From Arenibacter echinorum (GTDB lineage: Bacteria > Bacteroidota > Bacteroidia > Flavobacteriales > Flavobacteriaceae): DNA of 64,000 nucleotides. Below the pieces are notes generated by a model, which saw only the letters and a list, made by a program, of their open reading frames with translations, had not been told where the DNA came from and ran no database searches. Below, piece by piece: positions 2,719 through 5,870 of the stretch. The position numbers and the translations under genes were made by a program. The number at the start of each line of letters is the position of its first letter. Position 1 is the first letter of the stretch. The stretch covers positions 62,001 through 126,000 of the forward strand of contig NZ_QLLN01000006.1 in NCBI RefSeq assembly GCF_003259375.1. The letters are read 5' to 3'.

Positions 2719-2934
2719 GCCTTGGTGTTACCGTTTATGGCAGCATACCCAAAGAAGGTGGGCTTAGCAGTTGAATAAATTTTTAGAGAGCATTCCCGTG
2801 AAAATTATATTTTTTGGGCTCCATAAACCAGTAACTTTTTCCACATGCTGAAATAATGCAAAAAAAAACAAACCTTTTTTTGTATCCTTTTAGGCAAGTT
2901 TTGGTCTACTTAATAAACTTAAAATCTTTTAGGA

Positions 2935-3048
2935 ATGAATAATTGTAAATGTACCCAGTGCGAATGCACCAAATGTAATTGTGTCAACTGTTTGGAAAAA
3001 AACTGTCCTTGCAGCAAATGCGATTGTAATAAATGTGAATGTTGTTAA
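2935..3048 (+). CDS. Metallothionein-like Cys-rich microprotein (37 aa, 14 Cys)
   Basis: A short frame starts at ATG 2935 and stops at TAA 3046-3048. It encodes 37 residues, of which 14 are Cys (positions 4, 6, 9, 11, 14, 16, 19, 24, 26, 29, 31, 34, 36, 37). The Cys fall in two matching blocks of C-x-C-x-x-C repeats separated by the linker LEKN. The remaining residues are mostly K, N, E, T and D, with no aromatic or bulky core. Such composition is seen in metallothioneins, which bind Zn, Cu(I) or Cd through thiolate clusters. I do not recognise it as a member of a named family. It lies 36 bases ahead of the ATG of the SigZ-type sigma gene in the same direction, with a hairpin between them. 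Strict C-x-C-x-x-C periodicity over the whole frame makes chance very unlikely. Confidence 0.75.
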   Translation: MNNCKCTQCECTKCNCVNCLEKNCPCSKCDCNKCECC

Positions 3049-3051
3049 AAA

Positions 3052-3077
3052 AAGGTTGGTCTTTCAAGGCCAACCTT
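3052..3077. terminator. Hairpin between the Cys-rich peptide and the sigma gene
   Basis: Arms 3052-3061 and 3068-3077 pair over 10 positions (one G-U) around a six-base loop. An A tract precedes it, so on the minus strand it looks like an intrinsic terminator with a T run. On the plus strand no T run follows, so it may be an attenuator or 3'-end stabiliser for the peptide mRNA. It also buries the TTG at 3076, which argues against that start codon for the sigma gene. Confidence 0.45.
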
Positions 3078-3084
3078 GTATATT

Positions 3085-3618
3085 ATGGGTATGAAGATTG
3101 AAACGGCAGCCATTTGGAAAAAGCACCATAGTGAAATATACTTTTTTATTCTGAAAAAAGTGAAGGATGAAGAAGCTACCAGGGAAATAATTCAGAATGC
3201 CTTCCTTAAAATCCATCAAAAAATTGACACCTTAAAGGACTCGGAAAAGGTTAGGGCTTGGGTATTTACTATTGTTAGAAATGAAATTGCCAATTATTAC
3301 AACCTTGCCATCAAAACCTTGCAAAGCCCTTTGAATGAAATTTCATCAACTTATGACAGCTACCAGGATTTCTGTTGCTTTGATCGATTTGTAACCAATT
3401 TACCCAAACCATATAAGGAAGTGGTTCATTTGGTTTACCTACAGGGCAAGACCCAGGGCCAGGCAGCAGAAATGATGGGAATTAGCTTGGCCAACGTAAA
3501 AGCAAGAATTAGGCGCGCTAAATCACTTCTTATCCATAATTTTAATGCTTGCTGTAAATTTGAAATAAACAATGAGGGCAAACTCATTGGGGATTCCAAC
3601 TGCAGTATTTGTAATTAG
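3085..3618 (+). CDS. sigZ: SigZ-type ECF RNA polymerase sigma factor with Cys-rich segments
   Basis: A protein of about 177 residues. Region 2 (about 10-75) contains EIYFFILKKVKDEEATREI and the promoter-melting segment AWVFTIVRNEIANYY. Region 4 (about 110-160) contains LPKPYKEVVHLVYLQGKTQ and a helix-turn-helix MGISLANVKARIRRAK. It directs core polymerase to a dedicated promoter set. Two features are unusual: a CC pair in the linker between regions 2 and 4 (DFCCFD), and a tail beyond region 4 carrying ACC and, at the very end, NCSICN. Cys-rich tails are known to sense metals in CorE-type sigma factors of myxobacteria. No anti-sigma gene is adjacent. The reading frame can be extended to a TTG at 3076, but that codon is inside a hairpin; ATG 3085 or ATG 3091 is likelier. 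Confidence 0.8.
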   Translation: MGMKIETAAIWKKHHSEIYFFILKKVKDEEATREIIQNAFLKIHQKIDTLKDSEKVRAWVFTIVRNEIANYYNLAIKTLQSPLNEISSTYDSYQDFCCFDRFVTNLPKPYKEVVHLVYLQGKTQGQAAEMMGISLANVKARIRRAKSLLIHNFNACCKFEINNEGKLIGDSNCSICN

Positions 3619-4753: not shown

Positions 4754-5563
4754 ATGATCATAGACGTCCACACACATATCAACAACTACCATGAAGACCG
4801 GGTAGTTTCCTTGGAAGAATGCCTAAACCTTCTAACTGAGACTATGCAGGAAAATAAGGTAGATTATTCTTTGGTACTATCTTCCTATAAGGTAAACGAA
4901 CATAGACCCAGTACCAAGAAGGTGGTGGAAGCCATTAGTGGACGAGATAATCTTGGCGTGGTTGCGGGCATCAGTTATTTGAATTACACCCATAGGGACT
5001 TAAAGGAAATAAGTGAATTTTTGGATGAGGGCCTGATCAAAGGCCTAAAACTTTATCCAGGCTATGAGCCCTTTTACCCCAATGATAAAAGGCTACAGGT
5101 AGTTTATGACATGGCGGCGGAATACGGTGTACCGGTAATGTTTCATTCCGGAGACACCTATTCGCCAACGGGAAGAATCAAATACTCCCATCCCATTCAT
5201 ATAGACGATGTAGCAGTGGATTTTCCTGAGCTTAAAATTGTTATCTGCCATGTGGGTAATCCTTGGATCAAAGATTGTATGGAAGTAGTGTACAAAAACA
5301 AAAATGTATATAGCGATATTTCCGGTCTGGTTTTGGGTGATTTTTCATATAAATTTGAAAAATTCATGAAAAAGGAATTGGAGGAAATGATTACCTATGC
5401 CGGAAATCCACAGTACCTTTTATACGGCACGGACTGGCCAATTTCCAACATGCACTCCTATCTCAACTTTATGAAACAATTGGATCTTCCCGATGAAAAA
5501 AAAGAACTTATCCTATGGAAAAATGCTGCCGATCTTTTTAAAATAGATGTATCCAAATTTTAG
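4754..5563 (+). CDS. Amidohydrolase-fold (PF04909-type) metal-dependent hydrolase
   Basis: A 269-residue TIM-barrel enzyme. The metal-binding signatures are spread as expected: DVHTHIN at 4-10 (H6 and H8), VMFHSGD on a middle strand, VICHVGNPW on a later strand, and YGTDWP near the C-terminus, whose Asp is the usual catalytic and metal ligand. Length and motif order fit the amidohydrolase_2 group, which includes decarboxylases and C-C or C-N hydrolases. The substrate is unknown. It is a single gene between AT-rich gaps, with no pathway genes nearby. Confidence 0.8.
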   Translation: MIIDVHTHINNYHEDRVVSLEECLNLLTETMQENKVDYSLVLSSYKVNEHRPSTKKVVEAISGRDNLGVVAGISYLNYTHRDLKEISEFLDEGLIKGLKLYPGYEPFYPNDKRLQVVYDMAAEYGVPVMFHSGDTYSPTGRIKYSHPIHIDDVAVDFPELKIVICHVGNPWIKDCMEVVYKNKNVYSDISGLVLGDFSYKFEKFMKKELEEMITYAGNPQYLLYGTDWPISNMHSYLNFMKQLDLPDEKKELILWKNAADLFKIDVSKF

Positions 5564-5870
5564 ACAATACCCTTACTATTTTAATGTAACCTTAAATTTC
5601 AGCTTTTACATTTATAGATGGTGTACCTGTAGAACCTAAAATCCCATCTAAAACTACGGCACATCAAAAATGTTAAAACCAAAGAGCAGAATTTGTGCTA
5701 AATCAAAAATAAATGAATATCTTATAGGTAGGTAAGAGCCTTAAGAGATTGCACAATCATAAAATGCCAATAAATTTATTCGTTTGCATATAGTGCAAAT
5801 AGCATGTTCGAAGTTGCTCTTACCTTAAGGCTTTAAGCCAATTCATTTCAGCCCTTTTAATAGAAAATAG
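5564..5870 (+). promoter_or_regulatory. 307-base gap with a paired-repeat leader before the cotransporter gene
   Basis: No gene is visible here. Near the 3' half, GGTAAGAGC (5731-5739) is exactly complementary to GCTCTTACC (5816-5824). Between the arms, TTTGCA (5783-5788) and TGCAAA (5794-5799) form a short inner hairpin. A second pair, GCCTTAAG (5738-5745) with CTTAAGGC (5824-5831), adjoins the first pair on both sides, so the two helices compete or stack. A further palindrome GGCTTTAAGCC lies at 5829-5839. Such nested pairing just ahead of a transporter gene may be a cis-acting RNA control element. I do not recognise a known riboswitch class. Confidence 0.4.

Follow-up and report, generated by a model that had tools for sequence, protein, structure and literature searches.

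A cysteine-rich microprotein gene and a SigZ-like sigma factor as a putative metal-responsive module in Arenibacter and other Bacteroidota

In Arenibacter echinorum, a gene for a very short peptide with 14 cysteines lies directly ahead of the gene of a SigZ-like ECF sigma factor, and the pair, which is conserved in marine bacteria, is best read as a two-gene, anti-sigma-free, self-switching module for the production of a metallothionein-like microprotein, a reading to which we assign a probability of about 0.6. According to this model, six near-invariant cysteines of the sigma factor (a CC pair in the linker, a CC pair after region 4 and a CxxC in the tail) probably bind a thiophilic metal or metalloid, the candidate ligands being Cu(I), Zn, Cd, As(III) or Hg, and such binding would render the sigma factor competent to start transcription. 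Its target would be essentially a single promoter, GTATCYTTTT-N12-GTCTMC, which precedes the operon of the sigma gene itself; the main product of this operon would be the 14-Cys microprotein, acting as a metallothionein-like chelator. A hairpin past the peptide stop codon probably keeps most transcripts monocistronic, which would yield much peptide and little sigma factor, and by lowering the free metal the chelator would shut the sigma factor off. The gene itself, the purifying selection acting on it, its linkage to the sigma gene, the promoter-like motif, the covariation of the hairpin and the existence of a sister system are documented at the level of sequence. The features are located in Table 1 by their positions in the window, that is, the whole stretch of 64,000 nucleotides that was analysed.

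Table 1. Features of the peptide and sigma factor genes and their control elements (positions in the window)
Feature	Position	Strand	Basis
Predicted -35 element GTATCC with T4 tract	2882..2891	+	Constant spacing of GTATCYTTTT ahead of the peptide
Predicted -10 element GTCTAC (relatives GTCTMC), 12 nt past the T4 tract	2904..2909	+	25 nt before the peptide ATG
14-Cys microprotein, 37 aa	2935..3048	+	ORF; 15/18 genus genomes; 14 Cys invariant; dN/dS
Intercistronic hairpin, 11-bp stem, 4-nt loop	3052..3077	+	Stem scan, energy, covariation
SigZ-like ECF sigma factor	3091..3618 (alternative ATG 3085)	+	Pfam/NCBIfam; start from relatives
CC pair, sigma2-sigma4 linker	3373..3378	+	74/74 (first Cys) and 73/74 (second) linked sigmas
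CC pair after region 4	3550..3555	+	Each Cys in 73/74 linked sigmas
C-terminal CxxC of the sigma factor	3601..3612	+	73/74 and 72/74 linked sigmas

The peptide (translation MNNCKCTQCECTKCNCVNCLEKNCPCSKCDCNKCECC) had been described in the first-pass annotation as 37 residues with 14 cysteines, and both its location and the cysteine count proved correct. The next highest cysteine count among window ORFs of 25–80 amino acids is 6, and the maximum count per ORF was 5–8 when the window was shuffled 20 times (mononucleotide shuffling), so that the cysteine content of the peptide lies far beyond chance. The two mirrored blocks of C-x-C-x-x-C that had been proposed for it are, in fact, not mirrored; both seven-cysteine halves, CxCxxCxCxxCxC-xxC followed by CxCxxCxCxxCxC-C, are direct repeats, and 45-nt direct repeats are still visible in the peptide coding sequence of two relatives. 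All 14 cysteine positions are invariant in a 32-row peptide alignment, and 66 of 68 peptide loci (partly the same genes as in the alignment) encode 14 cysteines, with 12 in the remaining L084 and L105. The peptide thus has the short length, CxC/CxxC arrays and conserved cysteine positions of a metallothionein. It contains no histidine, and only C36 and C37 have adjacent codons, the other cysteines being spaced. Profile searches with Pfam and NCBIfam gave no match to the peptides, including none to a metallothionein family, no PDB sequence matched at E values up to 10, and a search of the plasmid collection for the 14-Cys peptide gave no hit. Across 15 Arenibacter alleles, dN/dS is 0.053 for the peptide gene and 0.185 at its non-Cys codons, and the cysteine codons are a mixture of TGT and TGC; the amino-acid sequence is therefore under selection. 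An identical peptide is present in A. algicola E3M18. Such a gene could easily be overlooked by gene callers.

The downstream protein contains the Sigma70_r2 (PF04542) and Sigma70_r4_2 (PF08281) domains of Pfam, both above gathering scores, and thus only regions 2 and 4, as is characteristic of ECF sigma factors. Its earlier designation as SigZ holds in part: the two SigZ models, NF007215 (132.3 bits) and TIGR02959 (122.6 bits), score highest among the NCBIfam sigma models, the next reaching 72.6 bits, yet both scores fall below their curated cut-offs (212 and 168.65, respectively), and full membership of TIGR02959 was rejected. The distance of 36 bases reported between the peptide and the sigma gene corresponds to the first sigma ATG (3085), 36 nt past the peptide stop codon; with the N-termini of related sigma factors reading MKIETA, MKMETA and METATIW, ATG 3091 is the likelier start.

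The cysteine pairs previously noticed in the linker and tail of the sigma factor are indeed there: the linker contains CC, and the tail contains CC and CxxC arranged as CC-x15-C-x2-C. When numbered as in locus L002, from TTG 3076, the linker C100 and C101, the following C159 and C160 and the tail C176 and C179 occur in 74, 73, 73, 73, 73 and 72 of the 74 sigma factors linked to a 14-Cys peptide. The same six positions, from C100 to C179, are cysteine in 0, 30, 30, 30, 30 and 30 of 30 sigma factors linked to an 11-Cys peptide (see below) and in 3, 13, 22, 12, 16 and 8 of 22 other SigZ proteins. On these counts, the peptide-linked sigma clades carry a fuller cysteine set than SigZ at large.

The alignment of 79 non-redundant regions upstream of the peptide revealed the motif GTATCYTTTT-N12-GTCTMC, mostly ending 24–27 nt before the ATG, and a strict regular expression matched 64 of the 79, with spacing that was always identical. 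A looser expression, written after viewing the sequences and allowing two spacings, matched 72 of 73 non-redundant sigma-linked loci versus none of five testable unlinked ones (Fisher p 2.8e-7, phylogenetic relatedness being ignored); the sole linked locus that it missed (L011) is one base off in the T tract, and L070, whose contig begins near the gene, was left out of the count. In the source genome, a loose pattern gave three matches, equal to the backward control (3), with the right spacing only at the operon; when at most one mismatch was allowed, the full motif was matched a single time, at the peptide operon. Across the 18 genus genomes, the motif at up to one mismatch was matched 27 times, 15 at the operon and 12 elsewhere, with 11 matches in the backward control; one of the 12 off-operon matches, in G004, is exact. 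A further 41 genomes were scanned, comprising 19 with the 14-Cys peptide and sigma factor, two with an orphan peptide and 20 with the 11-Cys peptide, and sites were assigned by comparing their positions with the lists of peptide carriers. The exact pattern GYATCYTTTT-N12-GTCTH occurred there at 43 sites (backward control 5), of which 33 lie at peptide operons, namely 15 at 14-Cys operons (all GTATC) and 18 at 11-Cys operons (all GCATC), and 10 lie elsewhere. The two orphan-peptide genomes contained no exact joint motif, and the exact form missed the operon in 4 of the 19 14-Cys and 2 of the 20 11-Cys genomes, in which the motifs vary. We infer that GTATCYTTTT-N12-GTCTMC is the promoter of the linked sigma factor itself, which would in effect serve one operon. 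Between the -10 element and the ATG (2910–2934), many loci of either peptide family share a further similar stretch, approximately TGAAC-N2-TAAAA, perhaps representing the transcript start and an A-rich ribosome site.

The sister system came from a search for SigZ paralogues with TIGR02959 in 120 family genomes, in which a second peptide of 33–34 amino acids with 11 invariant cysteines was found ahead of SigZ sigma factors. The 30 SigZ loci L158–L187 comprise 16 with the 11-Cys peptide, three with the 14-Cys peptide, two with other cysteine-rich peptides and nine with none. The 11-Cys peptide, for which there was no Pfam or NCBIfam match, is present in 68 of 397 family genomes; in the best 30 of the 68 11-Cys loci, SigZ lies downstream in 30 of 30 and GC[AG]TC[TC]TTTT-N11-13-[CA]GTCT upstream in 27. 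In a midpoint-rooted tree of 106 sigma factors, retained from 126 after thinning of near-copies, those linked to the 14-Cys peptide form one clade (support 100/99), those linked to the 11-Cys peptide another (100/96), and the two clades are sisters (98/80). None of the 397 genomes carries both peptides (24 and 68 carriers; 4.1 expected, P 0.009, phylogeny being ignored), as if the two were alternatives.

Further SigZ genes are paired with peptides unlike either of these, including one of 45 amino acids with 11 cysteines (L158/L226) and one of 59 amino acids with 15 cysteines (L182/L227), and a Hymenobacter plasmid (L190) carries SigZ with a 22-residue, 6-Cys peptide and with ars genes close by. 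At L158/L226 and at L190 the motif precedes both genes, so that a SigZ-type motif is common to the cysteine-rich peptide and the neighbouring sigma gene (positions 3288 and 3857 in L226, 2938 and 5030 in L190). No comparable cysteine-rich peptide was found beside the SigZ genes on Priestia and Vibrio plasmids; since these, like the nine loci mentioned above, have none, coupling to a peptide is not a property of all SigZ.

The genes that neighbour SigZ paralogues, several of which lack a peptide and are located near arsenic-type genes, provide a clue to the signal. The sigma gene is followed by ArsM in L123 (309 bits, cut-off 263) and by ArsI/CadI in L160 (117.8 bits, cut-off 116), and an arsM-like fragment is located about 1 kb from the sigma gene in L161. 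In L222 it is followed by a Thioredoxin_3 protein nearest the MTH895/ArsE subfamily (38 bits, below the cut-off of 62), beside whose gene lies an ArsP_1 permease gene (229 bits, above the cut-off), and this layout recurs in L224 (by reading) and L191 (as annotated). A MerT-like gene in L224 scored below the cut-offs, as did a DUF2703-like gene in L181 (23.5, cut-off 23.6), and at L167, L174, L175, L183 and L223 the neighbours, judged by reading, are of other kinds or not clear. These arsenic-type neighbours point the SigZ family towards thiophilic metals or metalloids, with the exceptions counting against a simple rule, and the metal is suggested by paralogues that may sense something else. 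The source genome holds another SigZ paralogue, present as four near-identical copies near the ends of contigs C3, C13, C14 and C15 (L122, L124, L125, L126, L174), pointing to an element that is repeated or mobile, or to an effect of assembly.

Motifs of the form GCGTC/GTGTC...GTC were also observed before some genes at the paralogue loci, a scan of 15 of which gave a match in eight and none in seven, the latter including the arsM locus L123 and L224. The motif lies 31–34 nt before arsI (L160), the thioredoxin gene (L222) and the DUF2703-like gene (L181), and at the same distance before a gene for a 439-aa protein (L127), a 42-aa ORF (L225) and the sigma gene itself (L161); the matches in L188 and L189 are of unclear meaning, and some (L127, L189) precede genes without a link to metals. 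Possibly, these motifs amount to a promoter code that holds for the SigZ family at large.

A thiol or redox module could be built in the same way: the sigma cysteines would respond to disulfide, electrophile or persulfide stress, with the peptide acting as a redox buffer of thiols or zinc thiolates, and the thioredoxin-like gene of some paralogue loci (L222, L224 and L191) would fit such a role. However, the L222 protein is the one nearest to MTH895/ArsE, albeit below the cut-off, and is accompanied by the ArsP_1 permease, other paralogue neighbours are arsenic genes, and repeats of CxCxxC are the arrangement known from metal-thiolate peptides, which leaves the redox module rather unlikely. 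The functional link between peptide and sigma factor put forward in the first-pass annotation, in turn, gains support from the promoter that is present with the sigma gene and absent without it, from the sister 11-Cys system and from the arsenic-type genes near some paralogues.

The peptide is carried by 15 of 18 Arenibacter genomes, every copy having 37 amino acids and 14 cysteines with a sigma gene 36–154 nt downstream (first ATG), and the three genomes that lack it (G002, G013 and G016) also lack the peptide-linked sigma clade, G016 having only a 33% identical sigma paralogue. It was found in 24 of 397 family genomes (three of these 24 being Arenibacter), in 8 of 395 genomes of a phylum draw and at 64 loci in a scan of named species genomes, in which the carriers include Arenibacter, Maribacter, Salegentibacter, Psychroflexus, Gillisia and Zunongwangia, among others, as well as Roseivirga, Echinicola, Portibacter, Brumimicrobium and Pedobacter. 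A search for a homologous frame beside sigZ in related genomes had been proposed as a check on the annotation, and its outcome is clear: all 15 Arenibacter peptides, and 34 of the 36 peptides obtained from genus and family combined, adjoin a sigma gene, which is the next gene downstream (exceptions L025 and L028). Altogether, a sigma gene follows the peptide in 96 of 104 loci, repeats included, as counted with a sigma profile built from two seed-pattern sequences; later searches used a profile of 74.

The eight peptide loci without a sigma gene belong to Robiginitalea (L025, L098), Robertkochia (L028, L080, L081, L089), a MAG (L070) and genome G484 (L104). No SigZ-type sigma factor was found at E 1e-23 or better in the six genomes of these orphan loci, one of them the MAG, the best TIGR02959 E value of 1.7e-23 being at the level of ECF factors at large, versus 6.7e-35 or better for the 14-Cys-linked sigma factors from the 120 family genomes. 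Since these six genomes keep the peptide, its role seems not to need the sigma factor; the peptide probably acts on its own, as an effector rather than a regulator or leader.

This bears on the idea that the peptide is a small metal-gated partner, either an anti-sigma factor or a metal donor, acting on the sigma cysteines. The near-strict pairing of the genes and the matching cysteine-rich chemistry of their products would fit such a partnership, yet the six genomes speak against it, in five of which the promoter is gone too, and the gene order, peptide before sigma factor, is the reverse of that usual for anti-sigma genes. A partner of this kind is considered quite improbable, and the chelator of the proposed module remains the preferred role of the peptide.

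The intercistronic hairpin, which in the window begins 3 nt past the peptide stop codon, has a minimum energy of -16.1 kcal/mol over the 60 nt that follow this codon. Within 60 nt of the stop, a stem no shorter than 8 bp was detected in 56 of 73 linked loci versus 0.8% of shuffles, in 14 of 30 11-Cys loci versus 0.7% and in one of six unlinked loci versus 3.3%; it was not detected in the other 17 linked and 16 11-Cys loci over the same 60 nt. In an alignment of 29 of the 73 loci, picked for having the hairpin, each of the nine pairs shows changes on both sides in some locus, pairing is retained in 99.2% of cells, and none of 500 shuffles scores as high. A T run follows the hairpin in many relatives, as in an intrinsic terminator, and is absent from the window.

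With a short cysteine-rich ORF placed immediately ahead of a covarying hairpin and a regulator gene, and with the hairpin near enough to the stop codon to be melted by a terminating ribosome, the ORF may alternatively be viewed as a cysteine-responsive leader, in which ribosomes translating the 14 Cys codons would decide whether transcription continues past the hairpin into sigZ, the peptide having no function of its own. Short ORFs rich in Cys codons and located ahead of an operon, termed polycysteine leaders, were reportedly described in mycobacteria by Canestrari in 2020. A polycysteine leader attenuator has a run of consecutive Cys codons in a peptide whose sequence is otherwise free. The 14-Cys ORF is similarly short and rich in Cys codons before an operon, but it differs from the mycobacterial leaders in its spaced, conserved cysteines, its selection at the amino-acid level and its retention without the downstream gene, and assignment to this class was rejected, with C36-C37 as the only adjacent pair and a non-Cys dN/dS of 0.185. 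The survival of the peptide without sigma factor or promoter and the many loci in which the hairpin was not detected also speak against control by Cys codon translation, which is regarded as very doubtful.

Clustering of the genes flanking 64 loci (up to 5 kb) left only the sigma gene and two gene groups, of four loci each, as present in at least four non-Arenibacter loci; at the threshold used, no metal gene recurs beside the 14-Cys module in these flanks, and a linked anti-sigma gene is likewise absent from the recurrent neighbours, as is the case for CorE-like factors. That the peptide, being short, cysteine-rich and conserved, is the precursor of a modified or exported (RiPP-like) product under sigma control is hardly credible, given that no maturation, protease or transporter gene recurs beside it within the same flanks and that its 32-row alignment lacks a leader-core layout.

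The unit has apparently been exchanged between orders. A stretch of 815 bp spanning promoter, peptide and sigma gene is 97.4% identical between Roseivirga spongicola (Cytophagales, L044) and Psychroflexus tropicus (Flavobacteriales, L045); beyond it, the two loci share no more than a nearby 125-bp repeat and some short, weak matches (module and repeat at 4903-5713 and 6669-6793 in L044; repeat and module at 721-845 and 831-1644 in L045). From this one case, the promoter-peptide-sigma unit seems to move by itself. The ends of the shared module are sharp (GCTAAC^GTTGGCAG ... CTGCCAAC^ACCGTATA), and further direct repeats are present in L045; the arrangement could be an integron- or cassette-like array.

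In a wider sense, the balance tips narrowly towards the view that SigZ-type ECF factors of Bacteroidota are anti-sigma-free thiolate sensors, of which two sister clades have become near single-promoter switches, each for its own metallothionein-like microprotein (14-Cys with GTATC, 11-Cys with GCATC), and that the promoter-peptide-sigma set can cross orders as one sub-kilobase unit. If this is true, a function and a promoter code could be assigned to part of the SigZ family, a metal-responsive circuit with one ECF sigma factor for what is in effect one operon would be added to those known, and two microprotein families absent from Pfam and NCBIfam as searched would receive a name. The GTATC/14-Cys and GCATC/11-Cys combinations would also constitute a natural set of sigma-promoter pairs for tests of orthogonality.

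The closest parallels are CorE and CorE2 of Myxococcus xanthus (former ECF44 and ECF238), which the accessible parts of PMC8999054 and PMC3107203 describe as metal-dependent ECF sigma factors. Judging from the same text, the window sigma factor resembles them in being an ECF factor with a cysteine motif in the linker, a cysteine-rich C-terminus and no linked anti-sigma factor; the activity of CorE and CorE2 is set by metal, which for the window sigma factor is proposed by analogy. The linker motif is CC in the window sigma factor versus CXC in CorE, the latter holding for former ECF44 members only, according to the available text of PMC8999054, and the tail pattern CC-x15-C-x2-C contrasts with the invariant cysteines 181, 184, 192 and 194 of CorE (PMC3107203, in part). 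CorE drives genes for a multicopper oxidase and a copper ATPase (PMC10141476, in part), whereas the window sigma factor would drive that of a microprotein. The 21 CRD sigma factors catalogued in 2011 came from four phyla, with Bacteroidota not among them in the accessible portion of PMC3107203. Because the cysteine patterns differ, the window sigma factor is not filed as a CorE-family member; CorE and CorE2 are nevertheless a precedent for an ECF factor that works without an anti-sigma factor and is switched by metal through linker and C-terminal cysteines. SigZ (TIGR02959/NF007215) is the best-scoring named family for it, albeit below the curated cut-offs, and the 14-Cys and 11-Cys clades differ from other SigZ in being tied to cysteine-rich peptides and in their fuller cysteine set.

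Known bacterial metallothioneins include SmtA and BmtA, with SmtB as a repressor. The 14-Cys peptide differs from them in having no detectable family membership, no histidine and two direct repeats of seven cysteines, and also in its apparent control by a private sigma factor, where SmtB acts by repression. Another bacterial metallothionein is MymT, and here too the regulator named in the accessible text of PMC10141476, RicR, is of the repressor type. As far as that text extends, the 14-Cys peptide and metallothioneins are alike in being short and very rich in cysteine, with a regulator that is metal-responsive or thought to be so. No description of a coupling between SigZ sigma factors and cysteine-rich microproteins was found in open-licence PMC text (titles and starts of abstracts). 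ECF sigma factors and metallothionein-like peptides are both of known kinds, and it is the proposed private sigma-microprotein circuit with its clade-matched promoters that would be new.
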